A DNA stretch of 64,000 bases from NCBI GenBank assembly GCA_029262115.1, contig JAJCZZ010000073.1, positions 1 through 64,000 on the forward strand, in the 5' to 3' direction. This document shows positions 19,249 to 31,184 of this stretch, in pieces. The notes below the pieces were generated by a model. It saw only the letters and a list, made by a program, of their open reading frames with translations, was not told the DNA's origin and searched no databases. The stretch is from Gemmatimonadota bacterium (lineage in GTDB: Bacteria; Gemmatimonadota; Gemmatimonadetes; Longimicrobiales; Gaopeijiaceae). The translations under genes were made by a program, and so were the position numbers. Numbering within the stretch: the first letter of the stretch is position 1; the number at the start of each line of letters is the position of its first letter.

Positions 19249-20070
19249 TCAACTCCGTGAAGCCGGATCGGCCAATTCCGCGAGAATCTCCGCACTTTCC
19301 GCGTCCGCCGGGAAGAACGACTCGATCCTGAGTTCCTGCAGCGTTACGTCGATCGGGGTGCCCAGCGTGGTGAACAGAGACACCAGGCGCGCCGGGCCGG
19401 CCGGCGTGTCCAACTCGATGGGGAGCATCAGCTCCGGGGGGACCTCCTCCGACGCCGGCCGTGAGGCCGGCACTGGACCGTACGACCGGAGTTCGGCGAC
19501 GACGTCCCGGAGACGTGCGGCCGACGGTGTCTCAGCCAACTCGGCCTCGAGCCGGTTCATGAGCGTGGGTGCCACGACCGACCAGTTCATGATGACCGGC
19601 CGCAGCCCGTCCGGGTGAAACGCCAGCCGATAGATGTTTTCCGCCACATGTGGAGGTGCTGTACGACCCCGGAGCACGGCCGCCAGGGTCACTACGTGCG
19701 CCTCGTTGTACATATGGACGTCCCCGGCCCGGTCGATCACGACGGCACTGTTCGGCATATGCCGGTCGATGAGGAACCGGAGAACGGCACGCACATGCGC
19801 CATCTCGGGAGCGTCGAAGTGTCGCTCCGTGTACCGGCGGGCGTGCCCCGCCGCTTCGAGGAGAGCGTTCTCCTCCCGCAACGGAAGGCGGAGCGCGCCG
19901 GCCAGGCGCTGCGCGACCTCCCGCGACGGACGTGACCGTCCGGTTTCGACGAAACTCATATGTCGCGGGGAGATGCCGATCGTGTGCGCCAACCGCATCT
20001 GGCTGAAGCCGCGCACGCTCCGCCAATGGCGAAGAACGGTACCCACCTCGGTGCCCTGATCGCTCGTCAT
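19249..20070 (-). CDS. XRE-family regulator with MmyB-like ligand-binding domain
   Basis: 273 residues. The N-terminal helix-turn-helix (about 10-65) reads LRHWRSVRGFSQMRLAHTIGISPRHMSFVETGRSRPS, the signature of MmyB-type regulators. The rest (about 105-265), with YNEAHVVTLAAV, RLAFHPDGLRPVIMNWSVVAPTLMNRL and LPIELDTPAGPARLVSLFTTLGTPIDVTL, matches the MmyB-like PAS-fold ligand-binding domain thought to bind fatty-acid-like molecules. Divergent from the DUF2834 membrane protein, 114 bases between starts, so it probably controls that gene. Convergent with the ADOP permease (13-base gap). Confidence 0.92.
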   Translation of the reverse strand: MTSDQGTEVGTVLRHWRSVRGFSQMRLAHTIGISPRHMSFVETGRSRPSREVAQRLAGALRLPLREENALLEAAGHARRYTERHFDAPEMAHVRAVLRFLIDRHMPNSAVVIDRAGDVHMYNEAHVVTLAAVLRGRTAPPHVAENIYRLAFHPDGLRPVIMNWSVVAPTLMNRLEAELAETPSAARLRDVVAELRSYGPVPASRPASEEVPPELMLPIELDTPAGPARLVSLFTTLGTPIDVTLQELRIESFFPADAESAEILAELADPASRS

Positions 20071-20184: not shown

Positions 20185-20523
20185 ATGCGCACCCTCTATC
20201 TCACGCTCGCCGCCGCCGGCACGGTCCTTCCCTGGATCTTCTTCGCCGGCTTCCTGAGTTCTGGAGACAACTCCATGACGGCGTTCGTCCAGCAACTGTT
20301 CGCGACCGCTCCGGCCTCCGGCTTCACGACCGATCTTCTGGTCAGTTCGACCACATTCTGGGCGTGGTCCGCGGTCGAGTCCCATCGCAACGCGATGACG
20401 CGCTGGTGGATCTATCCACTCCTGACCCTCGGCGTCGGCCTGTCGTGTGCCTTCCCGCTGTTCCTGTGGGCACGAGAGGGAGCCCTCGCCCGTCGGGTGG
20501 ATGGAGCTCCATCCCTTGGGTAG
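20185..20523 (+). CDS. DUF2834 small membrane protein
   Basis: 112 residues from ATG 20185 (AAGG 4 bases upstream). Three hydrophobic helices: about 2-22 (TLYLTLAAAGTVLPWIFFAGF), about 48-68 (DLLVSSTTFWAWSAVE) and about 75-98 (WWIYPLLTLGVGLSCAFPLFLW). The PW...F and FWAW motifs and closing FPLFLWAREGAL match DUF2834 membrane proteins. Function unknown. It lies 44 bases before the ABC-F gene on the same strand and across from the MmyB-type regulator, its probable controller. Confidence 0.82.
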   Translation: MRTLYLTLAAAGTVLPWIFFAGFLSSGDNSMTAFVQQLFATAPASGFTTDLLVSSTTFWAWSAVESHRNAMTRWWIYPLLTLGVGLSCAFPLFLWAREGALARRVDGAPSLG

Positions 20524-20567: not shown

Positions 20568-22511
20568 TTGAGCCTCATCGCCGCCTCTGGCGTGTCCGTC
20601 GAATTCGGCGCGACCAGGATCTTCGAAGACGTCGGCTTCACGGTCAGCAAGGGAGATCGGTGGGGTATCGTCGGACGGAACGGTACCGGTAAGACCACGC
20701 TGTTCAACCTGATCGCGGGGCGGCACGAGCCCTCCTCCGGCACGCTGACGCGGGCCAGTGGGCTCCGGCTCACCCTTCTGGACCAACATCGGGAGTTCAA
20801 GAAGGGCACGACCGTGTGGACGGCCGCGGCCTCACCCTTCGCGCATCTGCTCGACCTCGAATTATCGCTCGGCAAGCAGGCTGCGGCGATGTCCGACGAC
20901 ACGACCTCAGAGGCGGACCTCGAGCGGTACGGGCACGACCTCGAGCGGTTCCAGCGGGAGGGCGGGTACGAGATGGAGGCACGGGTGGACGCCGTCCTGG
21001 AAGGGCTCGGCTTCGACCCGAAGGCCGCGAGGTCGCAGCCGGTGCACCAACTCAGCGGAGGCGAAACCGGACGGGTCGGTCTCGCCCGCCAGTTGGTCGC
21101 GCCCGCCGACGTGCTCCTGCTCGATGAGCCGACCAACCATCTCGACCTGGAGACCACGGCCTGGCTCGAGGACTACCTGTCCGGGCTCGACGCGACAGTG
21201 TTGGTCATCAGCCACGACCGGGTGTTCCTCGACGACATGTGCGATCACGTTCTGCACTTCGAGTCGGACACGGCCTTCGCGTACGAAGGAGGCTACACGG
21301 ACTTCGTCGAACAACGCGCGGAGCGACTTCTGCAGCACGAGCGGGCCTTCAACCAACAGAAGAAGAAGATCGCCAAGGAAGAGGACTTCATCCGTCGCAA
21401 CATCGCCGGGCAGAAGACGGCCCAGGCCAAGGGACGGCGAAAGCAGTTGGCCCGCCTCCCCCGCCTGACGCCTCCCCCGGGAGCGGAGGGAGTCATGTCG
21501 GTCCGGCTGGAGCCGTACCGGCGGGGCGGGAACCAGGTACTCGTGGCCGAGGGAGTCCGCCTGGCCGTGGGCGAACGCGTACTGATCGACGGCTTTTCGT
21601 CCGTCCTCCGTCGGGGCGACGTAGTGGGACTCGTCGGCGCCAACGGCGCGGGCAAGTCGACGCTGATGGATGCCGTCATGGGCGCCCGACCCGTCGACGA
21701 CGGCACGCTTCGCGTCGGCCAGTCGATCGACGTCGCCTACTACCGGCAGGACATGGCCCAGGTCCCGCTCGGCAAGACCCTCTTCGACGTCATCAACGAT
21801 CTCCGTCCGACCTGGGACCGCGGCCAGGTGCAGGGCCACCTCGGGCGCTTCGGCTTCTCCGGTGACAGCGCGCTCCGAAAGGCCGACACCCTGTCCGGAG
21901 GCGAGCGCGCCCGCATGGCGCTGGCCATGCTCATGCTGTCGCGCGCCAACTTCATCTTGCTCGACGAGCCGACGAACCACCTCGATGTCGAGAGCGTGGA
22001 GGCTTTGGAGGACGCCCTCGACGGCTTCGGCGGCAGCGTGCTGCTGGTAAGCCATGATCGAGCGCTTCTCCGCAACCTCGTCACACGGGTGTGGTCCGTG
22101 CAGGACGGCACGGTCGTCGACTTCCCCGGATCGTTCGTGGAATGGGAAGGGGCACAGGCCGAGGGGCGGAGAACAGCAACGGCACGAGCAGCCGAAACAC
22201 AGGAGGAGGAGCGGGCGCACGCGCGGCGTGCCAGCCGCGCCGGACGGACGGATGACAAGACCGACCGGGCCCGCCTTCGCGCTCTGAGGGAGGCGGCGGC
22301 CGCAGCCGAGTCGCGTGCGCACCACCTGGAGTCCAAGATCGAGTCGCTCACCGCCGACCTGGCCGAACCATCGCTTTACGAAGACGCGTCCCGGGTCGAC
22401 GAGGCGGTGGACCTGAAGAAGAAGTTGGCGGAAGCGCGGATGGCTCTCGACGAGGCGATGGTTGCCTGGATGGAGGCAGACGACGCGGTCGCCCGTACAT
22501 TGGAGGCATGA
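20568..22511 (+). CDS. ABC-F family ATPase (Uup/EttA-like)
   Basis: 647 residues. TTG 20568 is the most likely start: MSLIAASGVSVEFG is the usual ABC-F beginning, and the long open frame upstream is only read-through over the DUF2834 gene. Two ATP-binding cassettes, Walker A at Lys42 (GRNGTGKTT) and Lys363 (GANGAGKST), signatures LSGGE near 162 and 442, Walker B LLLDEPTNHLD in both, no transmembrane segment, a P-site-tip type linker (FNQQKKKIAKEEDFIRRNIAGQ) and a C-terminal coiled coil. ABC-F proteins act on ribosomes. The stop overlaps the ATG of the HipA-like kinase (ATGA), so translation is coupled. Confidence 0.93.
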   Translation: MSLIAASGVSVEFGATRIFEDVGFTVSKGDRWGIVGRNGTGKTTLFNLIAGRHEPSSGTLTRASGLRLTLLDQHREFKKGTTVWTAAASPFAHLLDLELSLGKQAAAMSDDTTSEADLERYGHDLERFQREGGYEMEARVDAVLEGLGFDPKAARSQPVHQLSGGETGRVGLARQLVAPADVLLLDEPTNHLDLETTAWLEDYLSGLDATVLVISHDRVFLDDMCDHVLHFESDTAFAYEGGYTDFVEQRAERLLQHERAFNQQKKKIAKEEDFIRRNIAGQKTAQAKGRRKQLARLPRLTPPPGAEGVMSVRLEPYRRGGNQVLVAEGVRLAVGERVLIDGFSSVLRRGDVVGLVGANGAGKSTLMDAVMGARPVDDGTLRVGQSIDVAYYRQDMAQVPLGKTLFDVINDLRPTWDRGQVQGHLGRFGFSGDSALRKADTLSGGERARMALAMLMLSRANFILLDEPTNHLDVESVEALEDALDGFGGSVLLVSHDRALLRNLVTRVWSVQDGTVVDFPGSFVEWEGAQAEGRRTATARAAETQEEERAHARRASRAGRTDDKTDRARLRALREAAAAAESRAHHLESKIESLTADLAEPSLYEDASRVDEAVDLKKKLAEARMALDEAMVAWMEADDAVARTLEA

Positions 22512-23368
22512 CCCTCCAGCCGCTCACCCGTCGCGATGCCGCGATCTACCTCACCCCTCTGCGCGAGGGGGGATCGCTCCCGGCCGTGGTCGAGGACACG
22601 GACGGCGACCTCTGGGTCGTGAAGTTCCGGGGTGCGGGCCAGGGGCCGAAGGCGCTCGTTGCGGAAATCATCGTCGCCGGCCTGGCGGAGCACCTCGGCC
22701 TTCCCGTGCCGACACTCGCGCTGGTCTCGTTGGATGAGACGTTTGGCCAAGGTGATCGCGATCCGGAGATCCTCGACATCCTGCGCGGGAGCCACGGCGT
22801 CAACGTGGGAATGGCATATATGGACGGGGCGTTCAACCTGGACCCGGTCGCGGTTCCTGAGGCCATCACCGCGGACTTCGCCGCGCGTCTCGTCTGGCTC
22901 GACGCATTTGTCATGAACCCTGACCGCTCCGCGCGAAACCCGAATATGATGTTCTGGTCGGAGCGGCCGTGGCTGATCGATCACGGGGCGGCGCTCTTCG
23001 ACCATCACGACTGGTCCCGGGTCACGCCCGAGCGCACGGGGCGTGCGTTCCCCATGGTCGAGCAGCATTTTCTGCTCGGTCACGCCGGCGGCATCACGGA
23101 CGTCGACGCGGAGGTCGTGCCCACCCTCACCGAGGACGTTCTGAGCGGCGCGGTCGCGAGGGTGCCCGACGAGCTCCTGTTCGACCCGACGCGACCCGAC
23201 CCCCTCGTGGGTTCCGATGGGGCCGCCGGCGCGGCGGAGCTGCGGGCTCGGTACGTCGACTATCTCGTCCGCCGCCTGGAGGGTCAACGGGCCTGGGCAA
23301 CGGAGGCGGACGCGGCGCGACGCCGTCGTGCCGACGCCCCGCCCCTTCCGCTGAAGGCCCGGCGATGA
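22508..23368 (+). CDS. HipA-like kinase (HipA_2 type)
   Basis: 286 residues. Kinase-fold marks: Lys39 in DLWVVKF (ATP lysine), Glu53, catalytic loop N137-P-D139-R-S-A-R-N-P-N146, and metal-binding Asp158 in LIDHGAAL. It lacks the extra N-terminal subdomain of classical HipA and fits the short HipA-like (HipA_2) family, commonly encoded beside DUF3037 as here. Overlaps ABC-F upstream and DUF3037 downstream by 4 bases each (ATGA twice), so the three proteins are made together. Substrate unknown; classical HipA phosphorylates glutamyl-tRNA synthetase, but that must not be assumed here. Confidence 0.85.
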   Translation: MTLQPLTRRDAAIYLTPLREGGSLPAVVEDTDGDLWVVKFRGAGQGPKALVAEIIVAGLAEHLGLPVPTLALVSLDETFGQGDRDPEILDILRGSHGVNVGMAYMDGAFNLDPVAVPEAITADFAARLVWLDAFVMNPDRSARNPNMMFWSERPWLIDHGAALFDHHDWSRVTPERTGRAFPMVEQHFLLGHAGGITDVDAEVVPTLTEDVLSGAVARVPDELLFDPTRPDPLVGSDGAAGAAELRARYVDYLVRRLEGQRAWATEADAARRRRADAPPLPLKARR

Positions 23369-23760
23369 CGGAGACGGTCCGGATCGCCTATGACTTCGCG
23401 ATCCTACGAGTCGTGCCGCACCCACACCTCGAGCGGTGGATCCCGGTCGGTGTGGTCGTCCACGCCCGCACGACGGAGTACCTCGCCGCCCGAGTGGTCT
23501 CCGACCCCGAGCACCTGCGACAGATCGCCCCCGGCGTGGACGTCGACGTGCTGTCACGATACCTGCTCAACTTGTCTGCCATCGCCGCCGGCGACGAGCG
23601 GGCGGGACCCATGGCGCTCTATCCGCCCTCCGAGCGCTTCCACTGGCTGACCTGCCCCCGCTCGGACGTCCTTCAGGCGTCGGCGGTCCGGCGCGGCTTG
23701 TCGGCCGATCCGGCCGCGGCCCTCGATCACCTCTGGCGGGAGCACGTGAGCGAAGCGTAG
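23365..23760 (+). CDS. DUF3037 protein, partner of the HipA-like kinase
   Basis: 131 residues from ATG 23365 (ATGA overlap with the kinase stop). The opening YDFAILRVVPHPHLERWIPVGVVVHA and the later RFHWLTCPRSDVLQASAVRRGL are typical of DUF3037. The family has no assigned activity but is regularly next to HipA_2 kinases, so it may be their regulator, antitoxin or substrate. Last gene of the ABC-F/kinase/DUF3037 chain; convergent with the alpha/beta hydrolase with 6 bases between stops. Confidence 0.85.
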   Translation: MTETVRIAYDFAILRVVPHPHLERWIPVGVVVHARTTEYLAARVVSDPEHLRQIAPGVDVDVLSRYLLNLSAIAAGDERAGPMALYPPSERFHWLTCPRSDVLQASAVRRGLSADPAAALDHLWREHVSEA

Positions 23761-29140: not shown

Positions 29141-29605
29141 GTGGGCCAGCCAGTGACCAGCGAGTCACTCGACAGCGGATACGCGTACGCCTCCGTCGAT
29201 ACCGGACCGTCCCATGACGACGTGCGCCGGGTGGTCACCTCATACTACGCGGCCCTGAGCGCCCGCGACTGGGTCCGCTTCGCCGAACACTTCTGGCCGG
29301 GCGCCGATCTGACGACCGTGTGGATCGCTCCCGGCGGGCAGGAGCCCAGCGTAGTCACGATCTCCGTCCCCGACTTCGTGGCGGCGGCCCCTCGGGGGCC
29401 CGACAGCCGGGCGATCTTCGAAGAGCGCTTCGACTCCACCAGGACAACTGTGTCGGGAGGTCTCGCTCAGGCGTGGGTGTATTATTCCGCCCGCTTCGGT
29501 GAGCCCGAGGACCTGACCGAATGGAACGGCATCGACGCAATAACCCTTCTTCGCCACCGGGGTGAATGGCGCATCGTGGCCATCGCCTACGAGTCCGTCC
29601 TGTAG
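29141..29605 (+). CDS. SnoaL/NTF2-like protein, likely a lipoprotein with disturbed start
   Basis: 154 residues from GTG 29141. HDDVRRVVTSYYAALSARDWVRFAEHFWPGADLTTVW...EWRIVAIAYESVL has the cone-shaped NTF2/SnoaL fold pattern. In the same frame just upstream the DNA reads VLALALTGCRVG, a textbook lipobox, but that stretch has no ATG, GTG or TTG. An ATG with a basic leader (MRREGLRHRRR) sits at 29049 in another frame. Either a frameshift separates the leader from the body or a CTG at 29114 is used. Intact lipoprotein is the most likely ancestral state. Confidence 0.6.
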   Translation: MGQPVTSESLDSGYAYASVDTGPSHDDVRRVVTSYYAALSARDWVRFAEHFWPGADLTTVWIAPGGQEPSVVTISVPDFVAAAPRGPDSRAIFEERFDSTRTTVSGGLAQAWVYYSARFGEPEDLTEWNGIDAITLLRHRGEWRIVAIAYESVL

Positions 29606-29612
29606 CGCCCTA

Positions 29613-30902
29613 CTACCCCACCTCCCCCGCCCGCTCGTCCAACTCGCGCTGAACGCGCATGACGAACTTCCCGTCCACGCCGGTCTCCGCCGCCGCCTGC
29701 GGCCAGAGCGCGAGCGCGTCCCGCACCTGCTCGATGATCCGTTCCGGGCGCTTCACACCGAACGTCTGTGCCACACCGATCAGCTCCGCCCGTCCAATGC
29801 CCGACAGCCGATCCGCCACACGCATCTGATGCGTGGCCGTCCACCCCGTACCCTTGGCGAACGTGACATCGTACGCGGGTGTTAGTGACCATTCGCCCTC
29901 CGGCGTCATCTGGAACGACAGATTCTTCACGTGGTCGTCCTGGTTGACCGCCAGGACGTTGAAGACCATGCGCCGGTACCCTTCTTCGATCGCGGCGGGC
30001 GGGAGTCCGAGTCGGAGGGCGGTGCGCAGATACTCTTCGTAGCTGCTCGCGCCCACGTCGTTGTAGTCGACGTGCAGAATCCCACCCAGCGAGTGTTGGT
30101 GGATGCGCGTCCCGTCGGGTGTGCGGTCGAAACGTCGGATCAGGAGATGCGCGTACGGATCGCAGCCGGGCAGGATCGAGACATCCGCCATTTCGATGCC
30201 CGCCGCAGCCGCCAAATGCGAGTACGCCGCCTCGATACGATTCCACGGCTGCGCGCCACCCAGGCGCCGCTCGGTGACATCGTCGTCGACGCCGTCGAAT
30301 TTCAACAGGCACGGGACGAGGCCGGCGTCGTGCCCGGCCGTCCCGGAGCGCACCTCGTGCGACACCGGATCGTAGAGCACCACAGCTTTGGGGCGCATGC
30401 CACCCGCGGAGGAGCCGACGCGGTAGATCTCGGGCACGGCCACGGCCGGATCGCCCTGGATGACCCGCCGCGCGTCACGAACCAGCGCCGCCACCTCGAG
30501 CGCCTCGCCCTCGGCGGACCGGGTGGGTAACACCTCGGCGGGATGAAACGTCAGGGCGCCCATGCCCCGCTCGCCCACGTACAGGAGCTTCTGGACGGGG
30601 GACAGCGCCCGCCGTTCCTGCCCACGTGCCGTGAAGTACGCCCGGATCACCTTGTTCCCGAAGGCGTCCGGAAGGGAGTCGGCCAGGACGCCCGGGAGCC
30701 CGTGGAACGCCTCGCTGCGATGTAACTCCGGGAAGGCCACCGGGCCGTCCGTGCTCAACGGAAGGTGGATCGGGGAGATCTCCAGCCCCGTGCGCCGGAA
30801 CGCCTCCGTGTATTCGAACACGATCGAACGGTCGTCCTGCTCGGCGACCGCGCCGACGCGTTGGCCCCACGCCCGGACCTCCGCGACCGCCGTGATGGCC
30901 AC
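29613..30902 (-). CDS. hipA: HipA toxin kinase
   Basis: 429 residues, full-length HipA. N-terminal subdomain (about 1-110, with HLPLSTDGPVAFPELHRSEAFHGLPGVLADSLPDAFG), Gly-rich loop GSSAGGMRPKAV (163-174), ATP Lys201 in LLKFDG, catalytic NQDDHVKN (320-327) and metal-binding Asp345 in PAYDVTF. HipA kinases phosphorylate aminoacyl-tRNA synthetases and arrest growth until HipB neutralises them. Starts 3 bases after the hipB stop. Confidence 0.93.
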   Translation of the reverse strand: MAITAVAEVRAWGQRVGAVAEQDDRSIVFEYTEAFRRTGLEISPIHLPLSTDGPVAFPELHRSEAFHGLPGVLADSLPDAFGNKVIRAYFTARGQERRALSPVQKLLYVGERGMGALTFHPAEVLPTRSAEGEALEVAALVRDARRVIQGDPAVAVPEIYRVGSSAGGMRPKAVVLYDPVSHEVRSGTAGHDAGLVPCLLKFDGVDDDVTERRLGGAQPWNRIEAAYSHLAAAAGIEMADVSILPGCDPYAHLLIRRFDRTPDGTRIHQHSLGGILHVDYNDVGASSYEEYLRTALRLGLPPAAIEEGYRRMVFNVLAVNQDDHVKNLSFQMTPEGEWSLTPAYDVTFAKGTGWTATHQMRVADRLSGIGRAELIGVAQTFGVKRPERIIEQVRDALALWPQAAAETGVDGKFVMRVQRELDERAGEVG

Positions 30903-30905
30903 CGG

Positions 30906-31184
30906 TCAATCTCCTTCGCGGTCGATGGCCGCGAGCGGGCTGGGAAGCGGAGGAGGGATGAATCCGTCCAGGGCGTCGAGCCGCCCATATACCCGAAGAA
31001 GACGGACGACCGTCAGCAGCGTCGGATTGTCTCCCTGTTCTGCACGCGTGACCGTGCTGCGGCTGAGGCTCGCGCGCTCCGCCGCCGCGACAACCGTGAC
31101 CTTCCTCGACCGCCGCAGCGTCCGGAGTCGCTGACCGATGGCCTCCATCCACTCGGCATCCGTGCGTGACCCGCCGATCTCCAT
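30906..31184 (-). CDS. hipB: HipB-type XRE antitoxin
   Basis: 92 residues from ATG 31184, with GGAGG 6 bases upstream. Helix-turn-helix: IGQRLRTLRRSRKVTVVAAAERASLSRSTVTRAEQGDNPTLLTVVRLLRVYGRLDAL. The tail (about 75-92) is Pro-rich, as in many HipB proteins. Binds DNA to autoregulate and sequesters HipA. First gene of the hipBA operon; the nested inverted repeat at 31258-31303, 74 bases upstream, is its probable operator. Confidence 0.92.
   Translation of the reverse strand: MEIGGSRTDAEWMEAIGQRLRTLRRSRKVTVVAAAERASLSRSTVTRAEQGDNPTLLTVVRLLRVYGRLDALDGFIPPPLPSPLAAIDREGD

Follow-up and report, generated by a model that had tools for sequence, protein, structure and literature searches.

We consider it probable that the functional unit of this locus is a HipA_2 kinase together with a DUF3037 protein, from which the neighboring ABC-F gene is excluded; this pair resembles a resident regulatory kinase more than a mobile defence cassette. 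We conclude that the window (the whole 64,000-nucleotide stretch of DNA that was analyzed) carries a core ABC-F gene of ordinary type and, directly after it, a pair of the short-DUF3037 branch, which is most likely a kinase with its restrainer or adaptor.

Organization of the three-gene locus

The reading frames of the window confirmed three same-strand genes, ABC-F, HipA_2, and DUF3037, connected by two ATGA overlaps, as the sequence-only reading had described. The ABC-F ATPase gene (20568–22511, forward strand) begins with a TTG codon and encodes two ABC domains, a linker, and a C-terminal coiled coil. Its stop codon overlaps the start codon of the HipA_2 (HipA-like) Ser/Thr kinase gene (22508–23368, forward strand; 286 aa) in the ATGA at 22508–22511 (forward strand), and the kinase stop codon overlaps the start codon of the DUF3037 gene (23365–23760, forward strand) in the ATGA at 23365–23368 (forward strand). 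The DUF3037 gene encodes a short protein of 131 aa that is likely a restrainer or partner of the kinase. The three genes had also been called fused into one translational unit; the cistrons do overlap, but there is no fused protein.

ATGA joints are frequent in bacterial operons and, taken alone, have little meaning. The ABC-F/HipA_2 overlap was seen in the window alone, whereas the HipA_2/DUF3037 overlap was conserved beyond chance: among 96 distinct pairs drawn from several phyla, 82 had overlapping kinase and DUF3037 genes, 38 of them by 4 bases, with longer overlaps typical of Pseudomonadota. The promoter and terminator scan yielded no usable signal.

Upstream of the three genes lie a DUF2834 gene (20185–20523, forward strand), which ends 44 bp before the ABC-F gene, and, divergent from it, a gene for an MmyB-type (MLTR) regulator (19249–20070, reverse strand). 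Both were judged not to be part of the unit. It had been suggested that they might control it, but neither was conserved as a neighbor. DUF2834 was found in 5 of 118 relatives, and the four DUF2834 loci outside the window had no match to the regulator, the ABC-F, or the pair within ~1.5 kb, so that the idea of control finds no comparative support.

Sequence and predicted structure of the kinase and the DUF3037 protein

The window kinase gave a partial match to Pfam HipA_2 (52.5 bits, E 5e-14). The catalytic residues K39, E53, D139, N144, and D158 were intact and invariant in 64 aligned kinases, and a Gly-rich loop was located near the N terminus. In the AlphaFold2 model (pLDDT 91.6), the closest solved fold was that of Helicobacter pylori CtkA (Z 14.0 over 212 residues, 14% identity), and the model also resembled PI4K II and Shewanella HipA (Z 9.7 for HipA). 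The intact residues and the predicted kinase fold suggest that the window kinase is catalytically active. Although CtkA shares the kinase fold with the model, it is a secreted kinase, unlike the window kinase, and it is not known to have a DUF3037 partner. Phmmer and profile searches of the PDB with the window kinase returned no homologue at meaningful E-values.

The 131-aa protein matched Pfam DUF3037 with 96.7 bits (E 1e-27), and its predicted model was confident (pLDDT 94.4). The model had no Foldseek match at E 0.001, an absence that does not show a new fold, and its best Z was 3.4; the profile gave only weak matches against the PDB.

Identity and distribution of the ABC-F gene

Two ABC_tran domains and ABC_tran_Xtn, the ABC-F linker, were identified by Pfam in the ABC-F protein, and its N terminus from the TTG start aligned with those of orthologues. 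The protein scored 406 bits against the NCBIfam model for ribosomal-protection-like ABC-F proteins, above the cut-off of 380. It shares the two ABC domains, the linker, and the coiled-coil tail with the housekeeping ABC-F factors EttA, Uup, YheS, and YbiT, but unlike the named ABC-F subfamilies, it scored under the cut-off of every one among the 25 models listed. All listed models of the named resistance ABC-Fs (Vga, Msr, Lsa, OptrA, and Sal) remained far under their curated cut-offs. The window ABC-F is the sole copy of its subfamily in the genome; two further ABC-F copies are separate and 34% identical to it.

A close ABC-F was present in 202 of 395 Gemmatimonadota genomes, mostly away from the kinase–DUF3037 pair. 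Adjacency was judged from gene positions and from inspection of the retrieved loci. Among the 59 Gemmatimonadota genomes with the kinase, the window and the distant genus g97 (three genomes: G399, G160, and G292) were the sole cases of an ABC-F next to the pair. In g97, the order is kinase, DUF3037, ABC-F, with the ABC-F on the same strand 36–51 bp downstream of the pair, whereas the window ABC-F is upstream and overlapping. The sister pairs of that in the window (L030 and L031) had no ABC-F alongside. The survey of the ABC-F/HipA_2/DUF3037 order that the sequence-only reading had called for showed this order in the window alone among these genomes, with a reverse placement and a different ABC-F lineage in g97. 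That reading had accepted that an ABC-F beside the pair in this lineage only would speak against its proposal, and the observed distribution comes close to this.

In the ABC-F tree (30 sequences), the window copy grouped with an ABC-F of the same family from G330, beside which no pair lies on its short contig, and the g97 copies fell on another branch. A single clade for the pair-adjacent ABC-Fs was rejected (p-AU 2.7e-64). The window and g97 ABC-Fs are separate lineages, and adjacency to the pair therefore arose twice. If a genome is taken to have ~4,000 genes and the pair two flanks, and if ~30 pair lineages are counted as independent, the chance of a second independent ABC-F adjacency is roughly ~1–3%; two independent same-strand adjacencies, somewhat above chance, are suggestive but not compelling. 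We judged the window ABC-F to be a core-type gene of the phylum and not a component of the pair.

Two of the g97 genomes, G399 (L160) and G160 (L161), have another ABC-F from this subfamily (~540 aa), ending shortly past the second ABC domain, in addition to the full-length pair-adjacent copy.

Conservation, inheritance, and genomic settings of the pair

The kinase was found in 59 of 395 Gemmatimonadota genomes, and this patchiness is as expected for an accessory system. Within the short-DUF3037 branch of the kinase tree, the sequences from Gemmatimonadota and Pseudomonadota lay on opposite sides of one branch. In the genus Acidovorax, the pair was present in 35 of 47 genomes. The kinase had a median dN/dS of 0.14, and DUF3037 one of 0.08. 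The taxonomy-following tree, the presence within one genus, and the low dN/dS are signs of a resident pair inherited largely vertically.

The kinase start overlaps varied upstream genes, namely a CobC-type aminotransferase gene in Acidovorax, a cupin gene in Gemmatimonadaceae, and a MatE gene at one further locus (L143), and the ABC-F overlap in the window is one more such case. No defence system was recognized in the ten scanned neighbors of the pair.

In Acidovorax, the pair is part of a cobalamin-biosynthesis run (e.g., L075:3898–6138) that comprises CobD, the CobC-type aminotransferase, the kinase, DUF3037, CobQ, and CobT, with overlapping starts. In Acidovorax sp. SUPP3334 (L084:4977–5759), the kinase gene contains one in-frame stop and is possibly a decaying copy.

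Relation to HipAD and other HipA systems

Both window proteins matched the PADLOC profiles PDC-M66A/B, which describe phage-defence candidates, and the PDC-M66B match of the window DUF3037 covered only 3–130 of 281. DS-6, renamed HipAD, is a validated defence system consisting of a kinase and a DUF3037-DUF1829 protein; mutation of the DS-6A kinase active site led to loss of defence, and AlphaFold3 predicted a DS-6A/DS-6B complex (PMC13092281). With Retron-Sda1, whose operon includes such a pair, protection from phage Bas51 disappeared when the HipA kinase was deleted, and removal of DUF3037 proved toxic (PMC12548924). The HipA_2–DUF3037 combination had been described as a known neighbor pair of unknown role; the pair is indeed conserved, but its role is partly known from these two studies (PMC12548924, PMC13092281).

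Like HipAD, DS-6, and PDC-M66, the window has a HipA_2-type kinase with catalytic residues and a DUF3037 gene directly after it. Unlike in HipAD, the window partner is without the C-terminal extension (the DUF1829 or DNA-binding half) present in HipAD-type DUF3037 proteins, and the pair is chromosomal and largely vertical, with no mobile or defence-island setting. The kinases of a Klebsiella phage (L182) and a Pantoea plasmid (L181) were 244–250 aa long, scored 249–261 bits against HipA_2, and had DUF3037 partners of 276–280 aa, whereas the window, Acidovorax, Bacteroidota, and Streptomyces pairs scored 52–65 bits and had DUF3037 proteins of 127–131 aa. A very long branch separated the short-DUF3037 kinases from the phage and plasmid kinases in the kinase trees. 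Because the window pair belongs to this distant short-DUF3037, vertical, chromosomal branch, a defence function is not to be assumed for it.

In Klebsiella phage Kp4864-1 (L182:3938–5514), the HipA_2 kinase is accompanied by a 280-aa DUF3037 partner, and the gene just before this pair resembles a CI-type repressor in sequence (PHROGs 3162 and 5137, neither with a known function).

The window kinase shares the HipA-like kinase core with HipBA and HipBST, and its N-terminal Gly-rich loop is common to HipT and the small Hip families (PMC8262856). The partner of the window kinase is DUF3037, unlike the antitoxins of those systems (HTH HipB, HipS, Stl-like, and resolvase-like proteins), and DUF3037 is absent from the text of Gerdes et al. 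2021 (PMC8262856). No HTH HipB gene adjoins the window kinase, whose sole partner is DUF3037, and the N-terminal Couple_hipA domain is absent from it.

Solo kinases and a candidate docking site

A Gemmatimonadota clade (L184–L198; e.g., L189:6424–7149) consisted of lone HipA_2-like kinases, and DUF3037 was found nowhere in the 11 solo-kinase genomes searched, two of which are single-contig assemblies. The aligned solo kinases retained the active site, and in one genome (G074), the solo kinase overlapped RmuC by GTGA. The solo kinases form one clade and therefore represent one event.

The residue E20, just before the Gly-rich loop, was Glu in all 83 partnered kinases compared, including the phage and plasmid ones, whereas this position was Arg or Lys in 14 of the 15 solo kinases and Ser in the remaining one. 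Y14, P17, and L18 also differed between the two sets (83 versus 15). These differences hint that the E20 region is a candidate docking site for DUF3037 on the kinase, and the existence of the solo clade speaks against a constant need for DUF3037 as an antitoxin. The partnerless kinase clade and the charge reversal at E20 within it are new here.

Discussion

Under the reading that we prefer, a HipA-like Ser/Thr kinase with its Gly-rich loop at the N terminus would be active, and DUF3037 would probably dock on the kinase N-lobe and restrain or steer the kinase, with the conserved gene overlap allowing the partner to be made in step with it. The kinase would have a substrate in the cell, and the example of HipA suggests that this could be a translation protein. 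In this lineage, the ABC-F, a core gene, came to lie as the cistron ahead of the pair and would thereby lend it its transcript and probably its ribosomes. The pair would work like HipAD, yet its branch, with short DUF3037 proteins and a place inside operons, has more the appearance of a resident regulatory kinase than of a mobile phage-defence cassette. More tentatively, and with somewhat more doubt than belief, the short-DUF3037 kinases could be an ancient, vertically inherited regulatory family embedded in cobalamin, ABC-F, RmuC, and cupin operons, and not a phage-defence toxin, with DUF3037 docking on the N-lobe at residues such as Y14, P17, L18, and E20.

A system of three components, in which a DUF3037-restrained kinase hits the ABC-F or ABC-F-bound ribosomes and translation stops under stress or phage attack, appears very improbable to us. 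HipA kinases do act on translation proteins, and the two independent adjacencies, on the same strand both times, would fit such a system. However, no ABC-F was found beside the pair at all other loci checked, sister pairs included, the gene order and the ABC-F lineage differ between the window and g97, in other genomes the pair shares its upstream overlap with unrelated genes, and two genomes (G005 and G105) have the pair but a best ABC-F match that is just 36–38% identical. The ABC-F was rejected as a third component on the basis of its distribution and tree, and a literature search on ABC-F, HipA, and toxin–antitoxin systems found nothing relevant. Of the stress, toxin, or defence role once proposed for the locus, the toxin and defence part accords with published work on related pairs, but a translation-directed system coupled to the ABC-F was not sustained.

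The two remaining explanations concern the pair itself. Infection could free the kinase from DUF3037 and thereby stop translation, as in a phage-defence toxin–antitoxin cassette of the HipAD/PDC-M66 kind; the profile matches and validated relatives, the small overlapping partner gene, and the patchy occurrence in Gemmatimonadota are all consistent with this. We nevertheless regard it as unlikely, since the partner is longer and C-terminally extended in the two phage and plasmid relatives examined and, according to its description, in DS-6B, the window branch is far from the phage and plasmid kinases and follows taxonomy, the short branch occupies housekeeping operons and occurs in most genomes of one genus (35 of 47), and the ten scanned neighbors included no recognized defence system. 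Slightly better placed, although still open to considerable doubt, is a resident, non-defensive regulatory kinase for which DUF3037 serves as an adaptor or activator instead of an antitoxin and from which the solo kinases became independent. The toxicity of the DUF3037 deletion in the Retron-Sda1 operon is at odds with this explanation, and the solo kinases may simply have changed to a harmless substrate; in its favor are solo kinases with intact active sites in genomes without DUF3037, vertical inheritance with purifying selection, and the cobalamin-operon setting in Acidovorax.

Pairs of this kind are marked by annotation pipelines as candidates for defence (PDC-M66), and the present comparison cautions against treating every HipA_2/DUF3037 pair as a defence system. 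It suggests that the family has two lifestyles, one mobile (long DUF3037, phages and plasmids) and one resident (short DUF3037, housekeeping operons), in addition to kinases that lost their partner. This split provides a natural experiment on the role of DUF3037. The operon of an ABC-F and a kinase also illustrates that an appealing arrangement can be a product of gene order.

Other features of the window

A separate full-length HipA gene (29613–30902, reverse strand), with Couple_hipA and HipA_C domains, has an HTH gene (30906–31184, reverse strand) directly upstream, forming a hipBA-like module ~6 kb from the HipA_2 pair. Close to this module, ARAGORN predicted a tRNA-Val(cac) of 90 bases (29507–29596, reverse strand), which overlaps an opposite-strand ORF (29141–29605) and is possibly spurious.
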